Below are positions 52,354 through 63,732 of a DNA stretch of 64,000 nt, piece after piece. Made by a program: the position numbers and the translations under genes. Each line of letters starts with the position of its first letter. Positions within the stretch are counted from its first letter, which is position 1. The notes under the pieces were generated by a model that did no database searches, was not told where the DNA came from, and was given only the letters and a program-made list of their open reading frames with translations. The DNA comes from Pseudarthrobacter sp. fls2-241-R2A-127. Lineage in GTDB: Bacteria > Actinomycetota > Actinomycetes > Actinomycetales > Micrococcaceae. The stretch spans positions 372,001 through 436,000 of the forward strand of contig NZ_JARVSF010000008.1 in the NCBI RefSeq assembly GCF_030209355.1. Direction: 5' to 3'.

Positions 52354-54498
52354 CTATTTGCGCAGCTGGTAGACGGTGCTCCCGCCGACCGTTGTGGCCG
52401 GGAATGTCGCTTGGACCCATTGGGTGATGGCCGAGGAAGTGCCGCCCGCTCCGGACCGTCCAGCCCCATTATTACCCCCGGCTCCGGCACCCGGGCCGCT
52501 GTCCTGCGGCCGGGCGCCCGCTGTTCCTTGAGGCGTTCCGGGGCCCCCGAAAGGCCTGCCGGGGATGAAATAGGCTATCTGTCCTGCGGACACCATTTGT
52601 TTGAACTGGTCCAGCGTCGGATAAGGATCAGTGCCACTGAACCCGCCGATGGCCATGACTGACGTATTGGAACCAAGCTCAAGAGCGGCGGCGCTGTTCG
52701 CCCCGATGGTAGCGGCGGACCATGTTGTCGATTCCTTTTGCAGCAGTGCATTCAGTGCCGGGTCGCTAGGGGCAGCATCCGCCAAACCTCCGGGTGCTCC
52801 CCCCGGTTCGAAGTTGGCCGGGGCACGGAAGTCGGGACGTCCGCGTGCTGCCCCGCCGCGGCCGCCGGCGACGTTCGGGCTGCTGATGCCGGCCAGTCCC
52901 ATTGTTTGGTTGTTGGCCGCGGAGGCCGGCCCGGAAGAAGGAGAGCCGCCGGTATGGCCGGTTGCCGCCGTCGCGAGAGTCCATGCACCCGTGCCAAGGC
53001 CTGCAGAAACGAGAGCCAGCACTGCCGCCGCAACACCGGCGCGCGCGGTCCGGACGGGACCGGCCGCGATGAGGGCCGCGCTGAGTATGCCGACGGCGGG
53101 CACGGTCCAACGGAGCCACGGGAGCCAGCCTGGGCTGTTGGAGAGAAGGAGGAAAGACCAGGCTGCCGTGAGCAATAGGGCCGACACCAGGACAGCCCGG
53201 ACTGCGGCCATGGACCGTTGCCTCCAGAGTTGGACTCCGGCGATACCGATTACGGCAGCCACAGCGGGAGCAAGTTCGACAGTGTAATAGGCATGGATTG
53301 TGCCGCTCATGAACGAAAAAACAGCCGCGGTTGTAAGCAGCCAAGTGCCCCACATGATTAGTGCCGCGCGGACAATATCTGTTCTCGCCAGTCGCCGCAT
53401 AAACCACAGCGTGGCGACGAGAAGGACGATTGCCGCGGGCAGCAGCCATGCCACTTCCGCGCTGAACTCTCCTCCGAACAGGCGGAGGACGCCCGGAGGG
53501 CCCCCGAAGGAAAATCCGCCCCCACCCCCGGCTGCGCCGGGGAAGCCGCCCGCGGCCCCGGGATTACCGGCGAAATCCGGTGCCACACCGCCACCGGACC
53601 TCCCGGCGCCGCGACCGAGGATGCGGCTGAGTCCGTTGTAGCCGAAGACGAGTTCCCAAAGTGAATTAGTTTGGGAACCGGCCATGTATGGCCGGGCCGA
53701 GACCGGGAAGAGCTGGAATACCAGCGCGTAGGCTCCGGTGACAACCGTGATACCGCCGGCGGCGGCGAGCAGGTGCTGAAACCTCTTCTTCAGGGAAACC
53801 GGGGCCGCTATCAGGTAGGCGAGTCCGAAAGCGGGGACAGTCATGAATCCTTGGAGCATCTTGCTTAGAAAGGCCATGCCCACAAAGGTTCCTGCCCAGA
53901 AGAGCCAGGCGGGGCTGCCCTTTTGGATGGCCGTCGTCGTCATCCAAGCAGCGGCCATCAGGCAGAAAACCATCATGGCGTCGGGGTTGTTAAAGCGGAA
54001 CATGAGGGCAGCGACGGGTGTAGCGGCGAGTGCGGCTCCAGCGAGAAGACCTGCGGCCGGTCCGGCCGCCCGCTTCACGGCGAGGTAGAGCAGCCCCACG
54101 GATGCGATTCCCATAACGGCTTCGGGCAGGAGCATGGTGAGGGAACTGAATCCGAAGATCCTGCCCAACAAGGCCGGGATCCAGAAAGCTGCCGGTGGTT
54201 TATCTACAGTGATGGCGTTGGACGGGTCCAGGGATGCGAAAAGCAATGCCGTCCAGTTTTTTGTCCCGGACTGGACGGCTGCTGCGTAGAAGGCATTGGC
54301 ATAACCCGAGTTCGTCAGATTCCACAAGTAGATGAGCCCTGTCAGCAGGAGCAGCGCCGCGGCGGAGGGCCGCACCCAGCGGGGTTGCCCCTCGCCGAAG
54401 GCCAGGCGCTTCCACTGGGCGGCGGACGCGGCCTGCCGGGATGCGTCGCGGGACGGGTCCGGTATGGGGCTGGTGTTGGTGATGGATTCGGTGCTCAT
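52354..54498 (-). CDS. GT39 / ArnT-like membrane glycosyltransferase
   Basis: A 714-residue integral membrane protein. Early loop residues SGYANAFYAAAVQSG and SLDPSNAITVDKPPAAFWIPALLGRIFG carry the Asp and Lys-Pro-Pro features of lipid-linked-sugar transferases of the PMT/ArnT clan. About 11-12 helices follow. A Gly-rich loop near residue 320 and Gly/Ala/Pro-rich stretches around 555-590 and near the C-terminus are typical of the actinobacterial subgroup. The ATG at 54498 follows the upstream GT2 stop by eight bases. Polyprenyl-phosphate sugar made by that GT2 protein is the expected donor. Confidence 0.87.
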   Translation of the reverse strand: MSTESITNTSPIPDPSRDASRQAASAAQWKRLAFGEGQPRWVRPSAAALLLLTGLIYLWNLTNSGYANAFYAAAVQSGTKNWTALLFASLDPSNAITVDKPPAAFWIPALLGRIFGFSSLTMLLPEAVMGIASVGLLYLAVKRAAGPAAGLLAGAALAATPVAALMFRFNNPDAMMVFCLMAAAWMTTTAIQKGSPAWLFWAGTFVGMAFLSKMLQGFMTVPAFGLAYLIAAPVSLKKRFQHLLAAAGGITVVTGAYALVFQLFPVSARPYMAGSQTNSLWELVFGYNGLSRILGRGAGRSGGGVAPDFAGNPGAAGGFPGAAGGGGGFSFGGPPGVLRLFGGEFSAEVAWLLPAAIVLLVATLWFMRRLARTDIVRAALIMWGTWLLTTAAVFSFMSGTIHAYYTVELAPAVAAVIGIAGVQLWRQRSMAAVRAVLVSALLLTAAWSFLLLSNSPGWLPWLRWTVPAVGILSAALIAAGPVRTARAGVAAAVLALVSAGLGTGAWTLATAATGHTGGSPSSGPASAANNQTMGLAGISSPNVAGGRGGAARGRPDFRAPANFEPGGAPGGLADAAPSDPALNALLQKESTTWSAATIGANSAAALELGSNTSVMAIGGFSGTDPYPTLDQFKQMVSAGQIAYFIPGRPFGGPGTPQGTAGARPQDSGPGAGAGGNNGAGRSGAGGTSSAITQWVQATFPATTVGGSTVYQLRK

Positions 54499-54506
54499 GG
54501 TGTCTT

Positions 54507-55859
54507 TCACTTGACTGCGGGCGCATCAGTGGGCCCCGGCGGGGCTGGCGCGGCGGGGTGGCGGCGTGGGTGTTTGAAAACCCAGGACCGGAACAGGATA
54601 AATTTCAGCAAGGTGGCCAGGAGGTTGGCGCCGACGACGATCGCCACTTCGACACCCCTGGAGGGTTCGTGTTCGGAGTGAAGCCAGAACAGCGCTCCGG
54701 ACGTCAGTGCCAGGCCCAAAACAAACACTGCGAGGCCTTGGAATTGATGTCGTAAGGCGCCCGAGCGCCCGGAGACCCCGAAGGTGAACAACCGGTTGGC
54801 TGCCGTGTTTGCGACGGCAGTGATGAGCAACGCCACGAAATTCGCAGCCTGGGCATCGGCAATCGTGCGGAGTGTCAAAAAGAGTACAAGGTAGGCCAAG
54901 GTTGATAAGGCCCCGATGACACCAAAGCGGACCATTTGCCCCAGGAGAGCTCCGCTGCTTCTGTCCGGGGCGTTGCGGCCCAGGGCGTCGCGCAGCTCGG
55001 TGACGGGGATGCGTCCGGTGATCATGTCCCGCCCGATCCGTACGATCCCCTTCAGGTCATCGATGGAAGTTCGCAAAATATCAACCGACGAGTCCGGGTC
55101 GTCAGTCCAGTCCACCGGCACTTCGGCCACCCGCAATCCGGCCCGGTCGGCGATGACCAGAAGCTCGGTGTCGAAAAACCATGCGTCATCGACGGTGTAT
55201 GGCAGGAGGGCCCGGGCGATGTCGGATCGGATAGCTTTGAAGCCGCATTGGGCGTCTGAAAACCGGGCGCCTAAGGAGCCCCGGAGAACCAGGTTGTAGC
55301 TTCGGGAAATGAACTCACGCTTGGCCCCCCGGACCACGCGTGAGTTCCGGTTCAGCCTCGTCCCGATGGACAAGTCCGAATGGCCCGACAGCAGGGGTGC
55401 GACAAGCGGCCCCAGTGCAGCCAGATCAGTCGACAAATCAACATCCATGTAGGCCACAACTGCAGCCTCAGAGGCAAGCCAAACCGTCCGAAGCGCCCGT
55501 CCGCGCCCCTTCCGGTCTAGATGCACGACGCGCACGTCACCGAGCTCAGCGCAAAGACGGTGGGCAATCTCCAGGGTCGAGTCCGTGCTCGCGTTATCCG
55601 CAATGGTAATGACAAAGCGGTGCGGAAAACTGTCCTTCAAGTAGGAATGCAGACGCCGGACCGCAGTTTCCAGAGCCGCTTCTTCGTTGTAGACCGGGAG
55701 CGCGACATCGAGAACCACGATGCCGTTGGAGGTAGGAACCGGAGCACGCTCGGGCCGGACAGCAGGCACGCGACCGCCCGCGGACACGCCTGCTGGCTCG
55801 TGTCCGCCGGGGGGTTCGGCGATCAGGCCCCCGGAGTGGGTAGTAGTCGTACTGGGCAT
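54507..55859 (-). CDS. Polyprenyl-phosphate glycosyltransferase (GT2) fused to a GtrA-type membrane domain
   Basis: A 450-residue two-domain protein. Residues about 45-285 are GT2: VLDVALPVYNEEAALETAVRRLHSYL, ITIADNASTDSTLEIAHRL and YMDVDLSTDL (metal-binding DxD). Residues about 305-430 are a four-helix GtrA domain (MVRFGVIGALSTLAYLVLFLTLRT; NTAANRLFTFG). The first part charges polyprenyl phosphate with a sugar, and the GtrA part may flip it. No SD precedes the ATG at 55859; a palindrome and a TAACTT box sit immediately upstream, hinting at leaderless initiation. Confidence 0.88.
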   Translation of the reverse strand: MPSTTTTHSGGLIAEPPGGHEPAGVSAGGRVPAVRPERAPVPTSNGIVVLDVALPVYNEEAALETAVRRLHSYLKDSFPHRFVITIADNASTDSTLEIAHRLCAELGDVRVVHLDRKGRGRALRTVWLASEAAVVAYMDVDLSTDLAALGPLVAPLLSGHSDLSIGTRLNRNSRVVRGAKREFISRSYNLVLRGSLGARFSDAQCGFKAIRSDIARALLPYTVDDAWFFDTELLVIADRAGLRVAEVPVDWTDDPDSSVDILRTSIDDLKGIVRIGRDMITGRIPVTELRDALGRNAPDRSSGALLGQMVRFGVIGALSTLAYLVLFLTLRTIADAQAANFVALLITAVANTAANRLFTFGVSGRSGALRHQFQGLAVFVLGLALTSGALFWLHSEHEPSRGVEVAIVVGANLLATLLKFILFRSWVFKHPRRHPAAPAPPGPTDAPAVK

Positions 55860-56294: not shown

Positions 56295-57149
56295 TCAGTA
56301 CTTGTAGAAGCCCTCTCCCGAGGCGACGCCCAGCTTGCCCTGGTCGATGTAGTGCTTCTTCAGGTACTGGGCGAACGCCTGGGAACCGGCATCCGGGGAG
56401 GCCGAGGCGATGTTGTACGCGGTGGTGAGGCCAACGACGTCGTAGATCTGGAACGGTCCGCTCGGGGCCCCCGTGGCGGTGCGCCAGGTCCTGTCAATGG
56501 TGTGCGGGTCAGCGACACCCTGCAGCAGCAGTCCGGCGGCCGCGTTCAGCAGCGGAACCAGCAGCGAGTTCAGGACGTAGCCGGCCTTCTCCTTCTTGAT
56601 CTCGATCGGTTCCAGTCCGCTGTTCCGGGCAAAGTCGACGACGGCGGCGTACACCGACGGGTCGGTCTCCGCGGTGCCCATGACCTCGGCGATGTTCTGC
56701 GCCCAGATGTTGTTGGCGTAATGGAGCGCGAGGAAGCGGTCCGGGCGTCCGGTGTAGTCTTTCAGGTCACTGGGTAGCAGGGTGGAGGAGTTGGTCGCAA
56801 AGATGGCCTTGGCCGGTGCCAGCTCAGCGAGCTTGCGGTAGACGCCGCGTTTGAGTTCCAGCAGTTCGGGAACGGCTTCGATCACGAGGTCCGCGTCGAC
56901 GACGGCGTCCGCGAGGTCTGCGGTGAGGCGGAGGTTTGCCAGGGCTGCTTCGGTCTTGCCCCCGGACGCGCCCGCTACCTGTGCCCGGTAGATGCCGGCC
57001 AGGCGGGTGAAACGGTCCCGCGCCTTGGCAAGCGCGTCCTCGTCGACGTCGTAGGCGGTGACCGCGAAACCGTGGAATGCGGCCTGGAAGGCGATCTGGG
57101 AGCCGAGCACTCCGGTGCCGAGCACCGTGAGCGTCTTGATGGAGGGCAT
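56295..57149 (-). CDS. 3-hydroxyacyl-CoA dehydrogenase, short form
   Basis: A 284-residue NAD-dependent dehydrogenase. The Rossmann motif is VLGTGVLGSQIAFQAA (residues 9-24), with DADLVIEAVPELLELKRGVYRKL and ATNSSTLLPSD. The C-terminal 3HCDH domain is complete (KKEKAGYVLNSLLVPLLNAAAGLLL; GLTTAYNIAS). It oxidises 3-hydroxyacyl-CoA, or a related hydroxy-acid CoA, to the keto form. It follows the TetR gene by 23 bp on the same strand and has a paralogue at 62872. It may process acids released by the monooxygenase-hydrolase pathway. Confidence 0.9.
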   Translation of the reverse strand: MPSIKTLTVLGTGVLGSQIAFQAAFHGFAVTAYDVDEDALAKARDRFTRLAGIYRAQVAGASGGKTEAALANLRLTADLADAVVDADLVIEAVPELLELKRGVYRKLAELAPAKAIFATNSSTLLPSDLKDYTGRPDRFLALHYANNIWAQNIAEVMGTAETDPSVYAAVVDFARNSGLEPIEIKKEKAGYVLNSLLVPLLNAAAGLLLQGVADPHTIDRTWRTATGAPSGPFQIYDVVGLTTAYNIASASPDAGSQAFAQYLKKHYIDQGKLGVASGEGFYKY

Positions 57150-57172: not shown

Positions 57173-57814
57173 TTAGCGCCCGCCGGGGTTGTCGGACCCG
57201 TAAATACTGCGGATCCAGATGGTTGACAGGACGTCCAGGGCGGCGGTCTCCGCGATGGCGGGACTCTCCCGATTAAGGGCAGCAGTAATGACCCGTTCGT
57301 TCATCAGGTTCAGGCTCACCGCGAGGTCGTGCGCGTCGATGCCCGCCGGCGCGGCCCCGCGGGCCTGTTCGGCACGGATGACGTCGCTTGAGAAGTCGAC
57401 CCAGGACTGCATCGATCTGGACCAGAGTCCGCGCACCTCGTCGTTGCGGGCGCGGGCACCGATGGCGGCGGTCGACACAGCGCGGTGCGAGACAAATACC
57501 TCTACGAACATTCCGATGGAACGGGTCCACGCACCCGCGGGGTCGCTCTCGAAATCGCGCGGCAGGTGCCCCACCCGGTGCTCGACCTCGGTGATGACCC
57601 GGTCCAGCAGGGCCAGCAGCACGGCGTCTTTCGAGGGGAAGTAAAAGTAGAACGTGGGGCGCGAAATGCCGGCACCCCGGGCCAGGTCCTCGATGGAGAC
57701 GTCGTCAAAGGCACGGCTGGCCAGGAGGGCCTCCGCGGTCACCAGAATTGCGTCTTGCCGCTCATCCCCCGAAACCCTCGCGCTGCGTCTTCCTCTTTGA
57801 ACCATGCGTCCCAT
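57173..57814 (-). CDS. TetR-family regulator, EthR-like
   Basis: A 213-residue repressor. The helix-turn-helix is in SIEDLARGAGISRPTFYFYFPSKDAVLLALLDRV, and the C-terminal helical domain would bind the ligand. It resembles the EthR class, which neighbours Baeyer-Villiger monooxygenases such as EthA. The ATG at 57814 follows GAGGCTAGG; another at 57805 is possible. It is divergent from the monooxygenase-hydrolase gene with 61 bp between them, and a palindromic operator is in that gap. Confidence 0.9.
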   Translation of the reverse strand: MGRMVQRGRRSARVSGDERQDAILVTAEALLASRAFDDVSIEDLARGAGISRPTFYFYFPSKDAVLLALLDRVITEVEHRVGHLPRDFESDPAGAWTRSIGMFVEVFVSHRAVSTAAIGARARNDEVRGLWSRSMQSWVDFSSDVIRAEQARGAAPAGIDAHDLAVSLNLMNERVITAALNRESPAIAETAALDVLSTIWIRSIYGSDNPGGR

Positions 57815-57828
57815 CCTAGCCTCGGTTA

Positions 57829-57843
57829 TCAACACAGTGTTGA
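57829..57843. promoter_or_regulatory. TetR operator TCAACACAGTGTTGA
   Basis: A perfect palindrome around a central A, with a further half-site TCAACACT starting at 57849. It lies between the divergent TetR and monooxygenase genes and overlaps the -35 box of the latter, so a bound repressor would block it. Confidence 0.8.
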
Positions 57844-57869
57844 CTATCTCAACACTAAGTCGATAGCTT
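57840..57869 (+). promoter_or_regulatory. Promoter of the monooxygenase-hydrolase gene, probably leaderless
   Basis: A -35 TTGACT (57840-57845), an 18-bp spacer and a -10 TAGCTT (57864-57869). The ATG follows six bases later at 57876, with no SD in between, so transcription would start at or next to the ATG. Leaderless mRNAs are frequent in Actinobacteria. Confidence 0.65.
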
Positions 57870-57875
57870 GGCGGC

Positions 57876-60284
57876 ATGAGCGAGCACGTAGATGTGTTGA
57901 TTGTCGGCGCCGGGCTGAGCGGCGTGGGTTTCGCCAGCCGGCTGAAGCGCGAGGTACCCGGAAAAACCTTCACCGTGTTGGAGTCGCGGAACGCCATCGG
58001 GGGGACGTGGGACCTTTTCCGGTACCCCGGGATCCGGTCCGACAGCGACATGTACACGCTCGGCTACTCCTTCCGGCCTTGGGCCGGCGCAAAGGCGATC
58101 GCGGACGGCGAGTCCATCCGCGAGTACATCGAGGCAACGGTCGCCGACGAGGGCCTGGCGCCGCGGATCCGGCTGAACACCCGGGTCGTTTCCGCCGCGT
58201 GGTCAAGCGAAACCGCGTTGTGGACCGTGACGGCGGTCCGCACCTCCGGCGGCGAGTTCCGGGCCGGCGACACCGCTTCCTCCCCCGAGCCGGTCACTTT
58301 CACCTGCTCGTTCCTGTCCGTTTGCTCCGGCTACTACCGCTATGACGAGGGCTTCGCCCCGGCTATCGAGGGGGCCGACACCTTTGCTGGAAGCATCGTC
58401 CACCCGCAGCACTGGCCGGCAGACCTCGACTATGCGGGAAAGCAGGTGGTGGTCATCGGCAGCGGCGCTACGGCCGTGACCCTGGTGCCGTCCATGGCAA
58501 AGTCGGCGGCCAAGGTGACGATGCTGCAGCGCTCCCCCACCTACATCGCCCCCGTGCCCGCGCGGGACCACCTGGCCGACCGTCTCCGGGGCAAGCTGCC
58601 CGCGCAACTGGCGTACGACGTCGTACGCTCCAAGAACATTCTCTTCTCCATGTTCACTTACCAGCTCAGCCGACGGCGGCCCGAGACGATGAAGGCGATC
58701 CTGCGCAAGTCGGCAGTAGCCAAACTGCCGGCGGGATTCCCGGTGGACACGCACCTGGCCCCGTCGTACCAGCCGTGGGACCAGCGGGTCTGCGCAATCC
58801 CCAACGGGGACCTGTACCGGGCCATCAGTGCCGGCACTGCCGGGATCGTGACCGACACGATCTCCCGGATCACCCCGGACGGGATTGACCTGGCCTCCGG
58901 CACATCGCTGCCCGCCGACGTCATTGTCACGGCCACGGGACTGAACTTGCTGGTGATCGGCGGCACGAAGCTCTCCGTCGACGGCGAGCCCGTGGACGTC
59001 GGCAGAACCCTCACCTACAAGGGCATGATGCTCGAGGGTGTTCCGAATTTCGCCCTCACCATCGGCTACACCAACGCGTCCTGGACCCTCAAGGCGGACC
59101 TGGTCGCCGATTACATCTGCAGGCTGATCAAGCAGCTCGACCGCCGGAACCTCCAGTGGGTGGTGCCCGTTGCGCCCGCGGACGTCGCCAACGGCACGCT
59201 GTCCTCGCTGATCGACCTGAAGGCCGGCTACATTTTCCGCGGCGCCGACCAACTCCCCCGGCAGGGCGAAGGCTCACCGTGGCGGCTGCACCAGAACTAC
59301 TTCCGCGACTTCGCCCTGCTCCGGGCCGGCAGGCTGACCGACCACGTCCGGTTCGGCCGGCGCGGCCAGCCGGTGCGGGCAACCGACCGGCAACCCGCGG
59401 CCCCTGCCCGGGATCCCCTCTCGCTGCCGGGAACGGGCTACGCCACCGTCGCGGGGACACGCCTGCGCTACCGGAAGACCGGCAGCGGGGACCCGGTCCT
59501 GCTGCTGCACGGCATCGGCCAAAGCCTCGAGGACTGGAACGAACAGCACGAGCGGCTCTCGGACCGACACACGGTCTACAGCGTCGACCTTCCCGGCTTC
59601 GCGTATTCCGAACGGCTCCCCGGCACGACGACGCTCGCGAGGCTGGCCGGGATCCTGCCTGGCTTCCTGGACGCCGTAGGGGTTTCCGGGCCGCTGCCCG
59701 TGATGGGCAACTCGCTGGGCGGTGCCGTGGCAATGAAGTTGGCCACCGACCATCCGGACCGCGTCTCCGCGCTCGTCCTGGCCAACAGCGCCGGATTCGG
59801 CAAGGACGTGGCACTGGTCCTTCGCCTTCTTTCGGTCCGCCCGCTGGCGGCCCTGCTCCTGCGGCCCGACGAGAAAGCATCACGCCGGACCGTCCGAGCG
59901 ATCTTTTACGACAAAACGCTGGTCACGGAGGACCGCATCGGCCACGCGTTAGCCCTGTCGCAGCGTGAGGCGCATCGCCGGACACTGCTCGACATGGCCC
60001 GCGACCTCGGAACGATCTCCGGTGTCCGGCCCGGGTGGCGTACCGCTCTGATCGGGGCGCTCGCCAAGTCCGACGTTCCGGCGTTGGTGGTGTGGGGCGA
60101 CCACGACCACGTCCTGCCGTTCAGCCACCTTGAAGCGGCCGTGGCGGCACTGCCCCGCGCAGAGTCGCACGTCTTCGCCAAAACCGGACACATGCCGCAG
60201 ATTGAACGGCCCGACGAGTTCGCGGCCGTAGTGGAGGACTTCCTCACGAGGGTCTCAGCAGACCGTCAGGCGGCAAGCATCTAA
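57876..60284 (+). CDS. Baeyer-Villiger monooxygenase fused to an alpha/beta hydrolase
   Basis: An 802-residue fusion. Residues 1-500 form a type I Baeyer-Villiger monooxygenase: FAD site VGAGLSG (10-16), GGTWDLFRYPG, the family fingerprint FAGSIVHPQHWP (170-181, exact FxGxxxHxxxWP) and NADPH site IGSGATA (194-200). Residues about 518-797 form an alpha/beta hydrolase with oxyanion region LLLHGIGQSLEDW, nucleophile Ser613 in MGNSLGG, acid Asp742 or Asp744 and His772 in KTGHMPQIE. The two halves would insert oxygen into a ketone and then hydrolyse the resulting ester or lactone. No frameshift or stop separates them. It is controlled by the divergent TetR gene. Confidence 0.92.
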   Translation: MSEHVDVLIVGAGLSGVGFASRLKREVPGKTFTVLESRNAIGGTWDLFRYPGIRSDSDMYTLGYSFRPWAGAKAIADGESIREYIEATVADEGLAPRIRLNTRVVSAAWSSETALWTVTAVRTSGGEFRAGDTASSPEPVTFTCSFLSVCSGYYRYDEGFAPAIEGADTFAGSIVHPQHWPADLDYAGKQVVVIGSGATAVTLVPSMAKSAAKVTMLQRSPTYIAPVPARDHLADRLRGKLPAQLAYDVVRSKNILFSMFTYQLSRRRPETMKAILRKSAVAKLPAGFPVDTHLAPSYQPWDQRVCAIPNGDLYRAISAGTAGIVTDTISRITPDGIDLASGTSLPADVIVTATGLNLLVIGGTKLSVDGEPVDVGRTLTYKGMMLEGVPNFALTIGYTNASWTLKADLVADYICRLIKQLDRRNLQWVVPVAPADVANGTLSSLIDLKAGYIFRGADQLPRQGEGSPWRLHQNYFRDFALLRAGRLTDHVRFGRRGQPVRATDRQPAAPARDPLSLPGTGYATVAGTRLRYRKTGSGDPVLLLHGIGQSLEDWNEQHERLSDRHTVYSVDLPGFAYSERLPGTTTLARLAGILPGFLDAVGVSGPLPVMGNSLGGAVAMKLATDHPDRVSALVLANSAGFGKDVALVLRLLSVRPLAALLLRPDEKASRRTVRAIFYDKTLVTEDRIGHALALSQREAHRRTLLDMARDLGTISGVRPGWRTALIGALAKSDVPALVVWGDHDHVLPFSHLEAAVAALPRAESHVFAKTGHMPQIERPDEFAAVVEDFLTRVSADRQAASI

Positions 60285-60978: not shown

Positions 60979-61554
60979 CTAAGTCTCAGCGGGACCCTTC
61001 GACCGCTCCCCCAGCAGCCGTTCGATTCGGCCCTGGACCTCCAGGGCGGCTGCTGATTCATGGTTGAAGAGAATCCGGTAGATCACCGGGGCGACAACAG
61101 CATCGACAATCTCCGATGTCGCCGGCGCTCTTTCGCCTCGGAGTCCGGCCAGCCTGCGGATCTCTTCGACGTGGCCCTGCATGGACTGGAAATAGTCGCG
61201 GGTTACTGCGCCGTCCGCGAGCATGTCCCTGAGCACCTGCCGTCCGAGTGGTGATGAGAATTCCTCCACGTAGGGGACGAACCACGCCTCCATATCGCCC
61301 CTGAGCGAGCCGGTGTCCTCCACCTGCTCCGGCAGCATCTGGTTCGAGGCAACGGCGGCGAGCAGCCGGGGCAGGTCGCCCCAGCGACGGTAGATGGTGG
61401 AGGAGTTCACGCCCGCCCGGTCCGCGACCAGCGGGACGGAGAGGGCGGTCCGGTCGCCGTCATTCTCCGCCAGCAGCGAGCGCACGGCCTGGTGCACGGC
61501 CTGCTGGACGCGGGCGCTCCGGCCGCCGGGGCGGGGGGTCGCTGTCGTCATCAT
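60979..61554 (-). CDS. TetR-family regulator
   Basis: A 191-residue repressor. The helix-turn-helix is SVPLVADRAGVNSSTIYRRWGDLPRLLAAVASN. The C-terminal half (WFVPYVEEFSSPLGRQVLRDMLADGAV; VAPVIYRILFNHESA) is of the TetR_C class common in efflux repressors. Three tandem starts (GTG 61557, ATG 61554, ATG 61551) exist; the first ATG is given. It is divergent from the MFS gene, with an imperfect palindrome between them. Confidence 0.9.
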   Translation of the reverse strand: MMTTATPRPGGRSARVQQAVHQAVRSLLAENDGDRTALSVPLVADRAGVNSSTIYRRWGDLPRLLAAVASNQMLPEQVEDTGSLRGDMEAWFVPYVEEFSSPLGRQVLRDMLADGAVTRDYFQSMQGHVEEIRRLAGLRGERAPATSEIVDAVVAPVIYRILFNHESAAALEVQGRIERLLGERSKGPAET

Positions 61555-61574
61555 CACACCAGCCTAAGGCATAC

Positions 61575-61648: not shown

Positions 61649-62860
61649 GTGAAGAACACCGGTACCGCGTTCTGGCTTCACGCGGCGCTCCTGACGGTTT
61701 TCATCGGCGCTTCGTCGGCGCCCTCGCCGTTGTACGAGTTCTACGCCCGCGAGTGGGGACTCGGCTCCGCGGCCGTCACGGTGATCTTCGCCGTCTACGC
61801 CTTGGCCGTGCTGCTGACCCTGCTGGTGGTCGGTTCGCTGGCAAACCACGTGGGCACGCGGCCGGTGCTCCTGGGCGCGGTGGCGCTGCAGATCGGCGCG
61901 ATGATGACCTTCGCCTTCGCGCCGGGCCCGGAGATGCTGCTGGCCGCCCGGGCGCTGCAGGGTGTTGCCACCGGTGCCGCGATGGGTGCCGCGGGCGCCG
62001 CACTGCTGGCGTTTGAAGGCCCGAAGCGCCGCGGCCGCGGGTCCCTGGTCAACAGTGCCGCCTCGCCAATCGGACTCTCAATCGGCGCGCTCGGATCCGC
62101 CTCCGTCGTCAGGTTCCTGCCGGAGCCGACCAAGACGGTCTACTTCTTCCTCGCCGTGCTGCTGCTGGTCCTCGGTGTGGCGCTGCTCCGGCTGCCGAGC
62201 GCCGGCCAGGTGGCCCCTGGCTGGCTGCGCTCCCTGATACCCGAGGCCCGGATGCCCGGTTCCGCCCGGAAAACCATGGCCGCCACCATGCCGGTGGCCG
62301 CGGCCACCTGGGCGCTGGCAGGGTTCTACCTCTCGCTGGGGCCGGCCCTGGCGCACGCCATCACCCGGGGCAACTCGGTGCTGGTGGGCGGCCTGGCCCT
62401 CTTTGCCCTCTTCGTTCCCGGCGCCCTGGCCATCCTGGTGGTCCGCCGCCGCTCGGACCGGACCACGCTGCTGACCGGCGTCGTCTCCCTGATCACCGGC
62501 ATCTCCCTGACCGTGCTGGCCGTCCAGCTCGGATCCGCGCCGCTGTACTTCGCGGGCACCGTGGTGGCCGGCGTCGGCTTCGGCAGCGGGTACTTCGGCG
62601 CGATGCGCATGACCCTCCCGCTCTGCGGTCCGCACGAGCGCGTGGGCATGCTCTCCAGCATCTACCTGATCTGCTACCTCGGCTTCAGCGTCCCCGCCGT
62701 GGCCGCCGGGCTGCTGGTGGCCGTGGCCGGCATGAAGGGGACCACGCTGATTTACGGCGTGGCCCTCGTGCTCGCCGCCATTCCGGCCCTGCTTCGCACC
62801 ATCCGGAAAAACCCCGCCCACCGTCCCACCCTGGCTACCGATTCCCCGGCAGCGTCCTGA
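61649..62860 (+). CDS. Major facilitator superfamily transporter
   Basis: A 403-residue protein with 12 predicted helices. It starts TAFWLHAALLTVFIGASSAPSPLYEFYAREWGL. The loop 2-3 region is LLVVGSLANHVGTRPVLL, the drug:H+-type signature in degenerate form, and helix 4-5 has ARALQGVATGAAMGAAGAALLAF. The start is GTG at 61649 with AGGCAGGA upstream. It precedes a 3-hydroxyacyl-CoA dehydrogenase by 11 bp and is divergent from a TetR gene, so regulated efflux or uptake of a metabolite of the pathway is likely. Confidence 0.9.
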   Translation: MKNTGTAFWLHAALLTVFIGASSAPSPLYEFYAREWGLGSAAVTVIFAVYALAVLLTLLVVGSLANHVGTRPVLLGAVALQIGAMMTFAFAPGPEMLLAARALQGVATGAAMGAAGAALLAFEGPKRRGRGSLVNSAASPIGLSIGALGSASVVRFLPEPTKTVYFFLAVLLLVLGVALLRLPSAGQVAPGWLRSLIPEARMPGSARKTMAATMPVAAATWALAGFYLSLGPALAHAITRGNSVLVGGLALFALFVPGALAILVVRRRSDRTTLLTGVVSLITGISLTVLAVQLGSAPLYFAGTVVAGVGFGSGYFGAMRMTLPLCGPHERVGMLSSIYLICYLGFSVPAVAAGLLVAVAGMKGTTLIYGVALVLAAIPALLRTIRKNPAHRPTLATDSPAAS

Positions 62861-62871
62861 AAGGAAACGCC

Positions 62872-63732
62872 ATGACCTTTTCCCTCCCCGCCCACACCGC
62901 CGTCCGGCCCATCACCGTCATTGGCGGCGGCACCCTGGGCCGCCGCGTGGCCCTGATGCTGTCGCTGCGCGGCGCCGACGTGCGCATCTTCGACCTCAAC
63001 CCGGCCGTCGGCCAGGCCGCCGTCGACTTCATCGAGGCCGAGCGGCCCGCCGTCGCGGCCGAGCACGGCGGCGCGGCAGCCGGCCGGATCACCGCCGGCG
63101 GCGACCTCGCTGCCGCCCTGGACAACGCCTGGCTGGTGGTCGAGGCGGTGCCCGAAATGCTGGAGCTCAAGCGCGGGATCTTCGCGGACCTGGACCGGCT
63201 GGCCCCGGCGGACGCGCTGCTGGCCAGCAACTCGTCGTCGTTCGCGTCCTCGGAGTTCATTGGCGGCGTGTCCACCCCGGAGCGGGTCCTGAACATGCAC
63301 TTCTACATGCCGCCGGCCGTGCGCTCGGTGGAACTCATGTCCTGCGGCCGGACTGACCCGGCTGTCCTGGACCTGCTGATGGCCGAACTGCCCGGCTACG
63401 CGCTGGCCCCGCACCTGGTCCGGAAGGAAAGCACCGGCTTCATCTTCAACCGGGTCTGGGCCGCGATCAAGCGCGAGGCACTGCTGGTGGTGGCCGAGGG
63501 CGTGGCCGAGCCGGAGGACGTGGACGCCCTGTTCGTGGACGTCTTCAAGGCGGACACGGCACCGTTCCGCTTCATGGACCAGGTGGGCCTGGACGTGGTG
63601 CTCGACATCGAGAACCACTACTGCGAACTGGCCGGCATGGAAAACAAGTCCGCCCCGCTGCTGCAGGAATACATCGGCAAGGGCTGGCTGGGAATCAAGT
63701 CCGGCCGCGGCTTCTACAACGACTACGCCTAA
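62872..63732 (+). CDS. 3-hydroxyacyl-CoA dehydrogenase family protein
   Basis: A 286-residue NAD-binding dehydrogenase paralogous to the one at 56295. The Rossmann motif is TVIGGGTLGRRVALMLSLRG, with NAWLVVEAVPEMLELKRGIFADL, LASNSSSFASSEFIGG and NMHFYMPPAVRSVELM. The C-terminal domain contains RKESTGFIFNRVWAAIKREALLVV. AAAGGAAACGCC precedes the ATG, 11 bp after the MFS gene, so the two form an operon. The specific hydroxyacid is unknown. Confidence 0.9.
   Translation: MTFSLPAHTAVRPITVIGGGTLGRRVALMLSLRGADVRIFDLNPAVGQAAVDFIEAERPAVAAEHGGAAAGRITAGGDLAAALDNAWLVVEAVPEMLELKRGIFADLDRLAPADALLASNSSSFASSEFIGGVSTPERVLNMHFYMPPAVRSVELMSCGRTDPAVLDLLMAELPGYALAPHLVRKESTGFIFNRVWAAIKREALLVVAEGVAEPEDVDALFVDVFKADTAPFRFMDQVGLDVVLDIENHYCELAGMENKSAPLLQEYIGKGWLGIKSGRGFYNDYA

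Follow-up and report, generated by a model that had tools for sequence, protein, structure and literature searches.

Organization of the fused gene

At positions 57876–60284 of the forward strand, the analyzed window (the whole stretch of 64,000 nucleotides) carries an open reading frame that runs from ATG to stop without an internal stop codon and encodes a protein of 802 aa, in which a predicted EthA-family Baeyer–Villiger monooxygenase (BVMO) is joined to an alpha/beta hydrolase, as judged from the frame, from Pfam and from conservation of the fusion. Divergent from it lies a gene of a predicted EthR-family TetR repressor (57173–57805, reverse strand; EthR_C, PF21313, E-value 3e-41), whose start is presumably 57805, its ORF being open further upstream. 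A 3-hydroxyacyl-CoA dehydrogenase gene of the PRK08293 type (56295–57149, reverse strand; score 403.3 bits, cutoff 312; recognized also by synteny) follows 23 bp downstream in the same direction. The 70-bp gap between the divergent genes contains a candidate tandem operator, two palindromic 15-bp sites placed 20 bp apart (57829–57863). At a greater distance, a GT2/GtrA-type glycosyltransferase gene (54507–55859, reverse strand) overlaps a 718-aa ORF (52354–54510), and no link of these to the fusion was seen.

The type I BVMO module (aa 1–495; 57876–59360, forward strand) was recognized by the NAD_binding_8 and FMO-like Pfam matches in the first part of the protein, by the BVMO fingerprints, by its identity to a relative encoded at locus L136 and by Foldseek, where all of the 50 matches listed, of 1986 with an E-value of up to 10, were BVMO structures. 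Motif matching placed BVMO1 at aa 42–56 (57999–58043) and BVMO2 at aa 170–181 (58383–58418), both on the forward strand and both following the definitions given in section 5 of PMC9044951, i.e., [GA]GxWx4[FY]P[GM]x3D and FxGx3Hx3W[PD], respectively. Both fingerprints are present in 42 of the 46 aligned rows, the remaining four having Tyr in place of Phe170, and Asp56 is invariant in all 46. The motifs GAGLSG and GSGATA begin at aa 11 and aa 195. Arg304 is likewise invariant in the 46 rows, but it does not lie at the position that we take to be that of the catalytic arginine of cyclohexanone monooxygenase, while Arg315, which adjoins this presumed place, is an arginine in 30 rows. In the host genome, a single other match to the BVMO part of the gene was found (E-value 3.1e-4).

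An interdomain linker of 27 aa (aa 496–522; 59361–59441, forward strand) leads to the hydrolase module (aa 523–791; 59442–60248, forward strand), which matches Abhydrolase_1 at aa 540–779 (E-value 1.8e-27; 97.1 bits against the Pfam cutoff of 25.8). Over 265 columns, the module is 54% identical to an independent hydrolase frame next to an unfused relative (L052). Its predicted catalytic triad comprises Ser613 in GNSLGG (from aa 611), Asp744, taken here as the acid, and His772 in GHMPQ (from aa 771), with forward-strand codons at 59712–59714, 60105–60107 and 60189–60191, respectively. All three residues are invariant across the 36 aligned hydrolase domains. The uninterrupted frame with a BVMO fingerprint and a full hydrolase domain, which the first-pass annotation had read here, was recovered over its 802 aa by Pfam, fingerprints and triad, and the serine and the histidine were placed where that annotation had them. 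The AlphaFold2 model (58 sequences) has a mean pLDDT of 89.0, and its sole segment below 50 lies within the linker (aa 503–510); at its pTM of 0.68, the mutual placement of the two modeled domains is tentative.

We regard as negligible the chance that the fused frame results from misassembly or a frameshift error, or that the gene is decaying. A scan of the collection detected 354 stretches that encode relatives, and the best 80 entered an ORF survey; in 30 of these 80 loci the best BVMO frame and the best hydrolase match fall in one ORF, with an open junction. An artefact or decay would fit the two of these 30 loci in which the hydrolase match is incomplete, namely L012 and L027, the hydrolase domain of the latter aligning in part only. 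The L012 gene (6001–8440; Arthrobacter liuii) is an otherwise 94% identical fusion with a frame break inside the hydrolase domain, reflecting either an error or decay. Against this, no break at the junction occurs in any of the 30 relatives flagged as fused, and the NG86 dN/dS, calculated for 16 close sequences picked from the clade of the fused gene, is below 0.2 for each domain (0.128 for the BVMO and 0.182 for the hydrolase, 120 pairs each; 0.340 for the linker, 114 of the 120 pairs), indicating that both domains are under purifying selection and that the fused gene is maintained. A sequencing error between the domains, which the first-pass annotation had considered, is contradicted, since this selection acts on both domains and the same fusion is present in named relatives with identities as low as about 52%.

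Nor is there any indication that the hydrolase is translated separately, because the only in-frame start codon within 59250–59560 is a GTG at aa 500 preceded by a Shine–Dalgarno sequence with three of six matches; independent translation of this module was rejected for lack of a good internal start.

The EthR-type neighbor and the candidate operator

The BVMO module shares 260 of 498 aligned columns (52%) with the product of L136, which is divergent from an EthR-type gene and which we take to be an EthA. Loci L135–L137 presumably resemble mycobacterial EthA, a naming that follows the EthA sequence and the promoter. On these grounds the module is assigned to the EthA family. The fused protein departs from the size of a single-module EthA of about 490 aa, and it is a variant rather than EthA itself because of its 802 aa and its additional hydrolase domain.

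The neighbor of the fused gene is the single EthR_C match of the host genome, and this family was absent from all 14 control genomes searched. The candidate operator consists of TCAACACAGTGTTGA (57829–57843) and TCAACACTAAGTCGA (57849–57863). Within the 64-kb window, the TCRACANNGTGTYGA pattern, allowing at most one mismatch, occurs at this gap only, with three strand matches compared with 0.23 expected, and 100 shuffles of the window gave two matches at most. In the whole genome, the half-site with at most one mismatch gave 17 strand matches against eight for a control pattern. A second EthR-controlled locus in this genome was sought and rejected, as none of these matches elsewhere formed a pair of sites 20 bp apart.

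Among all 141 loci with a BVMO frame, a pair of sites 20 bp apart (at most six of 24 fixed positions missed), located no more than 200 bp before the BVMO, accompanies 52 of the 58 loci with an EthR-like match anywhere in the locus and two of the 83 without one; with at most four positions missed, the counts are 49 of 58 and 0 of 83. Because near-duplicates and the host locus itself are counted and the loci share ancestry, these are not independent events. The six EthR-like loci in which no paired sites were found are L017, L033, L035, L065, L066, and L123.

The second palindrome is abutted by TAGCTT (57864–57869, forward strand), a −10-like hexamer located 7–12 nt before the start codon of the fused gene, and it is possible that a leaderless promoter at this hexamer is occluded by the repressor. 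In a primer for the ethA promoter of Mycobacterium tuberculosis (PMC5623190), read in reverse, the ATG is preceded by GTTGATAGCGTGGATCC, compared with GTCGATAGCTTGGCGGC here; the longer comparison sets GTTGATAGCGTGGATCCATGACCG of that primer against GTCGATAGCTTGGCGGCATGAGC at the same place upstream of the fused gene, with the limitation that the primer may contain designed bases. As far as the sequence goes, a divergent EthR_C regulator and a conserved tandem palindrome are arranged here as in the EthA/EthR pair, and binding of the repressor to this palindrome is predicted.

It should be stressed that EthR control is not general to the fusions, as among 96 loci examined for neighbors an EthR-like gene lies within 2 kb of 20 of the 38 fused genes and is absent from this distance in the other 18. 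The earlier reading of this locus is supported in part, above all for a real single-polypeptide BVMO–hydrolase; it had overlooked the candidate operator, the EthR-type repressor and the membership in the EthA family.

Distribution of the fusions and their gene partners

In Micrococcaceae, 55 of 245 genomes (the host genome included) have a match at an E-value of 1e-90 or better, and the fusion itself is present in at least 18 of them, according to our own count with domain calls on the part of the matches that was fetched. Matches were also found in 60 of 396 genomes of an order sample (E-value 1e-100) and in 46 of 396 genomes of a phylum sample (E-value 1e-120), these two samples overlapping and their matches covering mostly the BVMO part only. 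The fusion is conserved in Micrococcaceae and Microbacteriaceae, yet patchy.

The BVMO tree was built for 107 modules (106 loci and the host gene) from the 141 loci, 35 being omitted as near-duplicates or close relatives, as the host locus (L081) or as odd or broken frames (L097, L115, and L127). On this tree the fused and unfused states need five changes, four of them forced by starred branches, gains and losses being indistinguishable in these counts. The fused rows fall into the clade of the host gene (23 rows), L028 with L094, L030, L098–L107 (where they all come from the family of the host), L109–L112, and L108. Monophyly of the 41 fused rows was rejected (p-AU 5.3e-8), as was that of the 26 class-A rows (3.5e-6), and with it a single origin of the fusion on the trees made, which were built by a quick procedure and include some long branches. 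For the hydrolase, a tree of 66 rows, from which 15 loci were omitted as near-duplicates or broken, shows, by eye, blocks similar to those of the BVMO tree and carries long-branch warnings. The survey of fusion homologs proposed in the first-pass annotation revealed fused genes that are not confined to one clade, and BVMO–hydrolase fusions appear to be recurrent and to have arisen more than once.

Among the near relatives, L065, L123, and L125 are BVMO/hydrolase gene pairs with four-base overlaps. The fused L030 groups with L065 and L125, whose hydrolase gene starts, in a different reading frame, at the stop codon of the BVMO gene, which suggests that the L030 fusion was formed through loss of such an overlap, although this case could be an error, as it comes from one assembly only.

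Two plasmid-borne genes extend this picture. In the Deinococcus radiodurans plasmid MP1, DR_RS15615 (L151:2433–4934), annotated as an alpha/beta hydrolase fold protein only, encodes an Abhydrolase_3 domain followed by an EthA-family BVMO in one protein. In a plasmid of Streptomyces sp. NBC_01717 (L149:3956–6298), there is an open BVMO–hydrolase frame of 780 aa, of which the record table (pseudogenes omitted) lists the hydrolase half only; this frame is accompanied by the 3-hydroxyacyl-CoA dehydrogenase gene, by a gene annotated as long-chain fatty acid–CoA ligase and by a TetR neighbor without EthR_C. A search of titles and abstract openings, with subscription journals mostly outside its coverage, found no earlier report of a natural BVMO–hydrolase fusion, and the words "fusion", "fused" and "hydrolase" are absent from the main text of PMC4498894.

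In the main fused clade (28 loci, L001–L027 and L029), the EthR-like gene is present in 23 loci and the dehydrogenase in 21. By this synteny, the dehydrogenase gene adjoining the EthR-like gene is a conserved partner of the fused gene, and to this extent the first-pass annotation, which had pointed to the flanking 3-hydroxyacyl-CoA dehydrogenases, was right. Of the second one (62872–63732, forward strand) no ortholog was found in the flanks of the 80 loci; this candidate partner was rejected, being 29–34% identical to the copies of the first dehydrogenase in the relatives and having no better match there. This distant second dehydrogenase gene lies 11 bp downstream of an MFS transporter gene (61649–62860, forward strand), and the pair is divergent from a gene of a TetR_C_11 regulator (60979–61557, reverse strand).

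Neighbors were counted in the 96 of the 106 tree loci that are flanked by 1.8 kb or more on either side. A 3-hydroxyacyl-CoA dehydrogenase lies within 2 kb in 22 of these loci and an SDR in 28, but never together (kinship not removed), as if the two filled one dehydrogenase slot. In Micromonospora loci, the BVMO, SDR and Abhydrolase_1 genes are consecutive, while Amnibacterium and an Acidobacteria MAG have BVMO, 3-hydroxyacyl-CoA dehydrogenase and Abhydrolase_3 genes with an AMP-binding ligase close by (domains called with Pfam for L034 and L049 and with local profiles for the others).

A hydrolase is encoded within 2 kb in 31 of the 41 loci with an EthR-like gene and in 28 of the 55 without it. 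No hydrolase of the two types sought was found within this distance in 37 of the 96 EthA-family loci, nor was one found in the loci of mycobacterial type (L135–L137), which speaks against a universal pairing of BVMO and hydrolase in this family.

Proposed function and comparison with known systems

In our judgment, the fused gene probably encodes a bifunctional EthA-family enzyme which converts a ketone into an ester and hydrolyzes the latter, under EthR control. We infer this order of reactions, with the ester as the shared intermediate: the FAD/NADPH module would insert oxygen beside the carbonyl of a probably aliphatic ketone, and the fused Ser613–Asp744–His772 hydrolase would split the resulting ester into an acid and an alcohol. 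The divergent repressor would bind the tandem palindrome abutting the promoter and would be released once a ligand is present, which may be the ketone or one of the products. The acid may then enter CoA-linked oxidation, in which the neighboring 3-hydroxyacyl-CoA dehydrogenase could perform one of the later steps. A pathway in which a BVMO turns a ketone into an ester that is then cleaved by an esterase has been described (PMC13055320), and the discussion of PMC9044951 gives in vitro activity of EthA, MymA, and Rv0565c on linear substrates (2-oct and Et3-ox, as abbreviated there). Fusions outside the clade of the host gene, unfused gene pairs with four-base overlaps and the reversed fusion of Deinococcus all lend strength to the view that the two reactions belong together.

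A different substrate for the hydrolase seems unlikely to us. It might act elsewhere than on the BVMO product, e.g., on a diketone by C–C bond hydrolysis or on a compound from which the ketone is made, and the C–C hydrolases HsaD and BphD are indeed among the nearest solved and curated relatives of this domain. All 25 curated families listed for the module scored below their own cutoffs, including the HsaD and BphD equivalogs (112.3 against 400 and 90.1 against 462.15, respectively). Abhydrolase_3, a class containing many esterases, is paired with the BVMO in two lineages, i.e., the Amnibacterium/Acidobacteria clade and Deinococcus, which argues that the pairing is with a hydrolytic activity and not with one family.

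The benefit of the fusion is a separate matter. With the same two reactions, the fusion may merely fix a 1:1 ratio and joint expression, while the ester diffuses freely without channelling, and we give this version slightly better than even chances. It is favored by the linker, whose length ranges between 13 and 52 aa in the main fused clade, whose conservation is the weakest in the protein and which includes the modeled segment with a pLDDT below 50, as well as by some unfused relatives with overlapping genes, which could also be co-expressed. No counter-evidence was found here, repeated fusion being equally compatible with channelling.

Returning to the bifunctional ketone-to-acid enzyme, a broader proposal, which we hold only tentatively and consider rather improbable, is that EthA/EthR systems are basically regulated modules for turning ketones into acids, in which the EthA-family BVMO works with a hydrolase dedicated to the ester. 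The two would have been fused repeatedly, in either order and with hydrolases of two classes, for direct transfer of the ester. If so, the Arthrobacter-type fused protein would be a pointer to the natural role of mycobacterial EthA. The physiological role of the ethionamide-activating EthA and its kin is described as an open question in the discussion of PMC9044951. The most useful new fact is an EthA-family enzyme with a built-in esterase candidate, next to an EthR-type regulator and a palindrome, which may offer a harmless route to the ligand, the ketone and the products in a bacterium of the Arthrobacter group. Moreover, natural BVMO–hydrolase fusions may act as one-enzyme catalysts leading from a ketone to an acid and an alcohol.

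Among known systems, EthA/EthR of mycobacteria has the same arrangement of an EthA-family BVMO divergent from an EthR_C-type repressor across a short gap with the same tandem palindrome, but the L136 protein of that type has 489 aa, whereas in the gene described here a hydrolase domain is added, and a 3-hydroxyacyl-CoA dehydrogenase gene accompanies it as a conserved partner. The mymA operon of M. tuberculosis also groups an EthA-family BVMO with a hydrolase and dehydrogenases, in unfused form. This operon comprises seven genes, adhD being the fourth, and is tied to VirS, not to EthR (PMC13234193). Subterminal oxidation of alkanes and ketones by a BVMO and an esterase follows the two-step scheme that is also proposed for the fused protein (PMC13055320), with separate proteins there and a single polypeptide here. 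Finally, DR_RS15615 of D. radiodurans (WP_010884002.1) likewise unites a hydrolase and an EthA-family BVMO in one protein, but in the reverse domain order and with Abhydrolase_3 in place of Abhydrolase_1.
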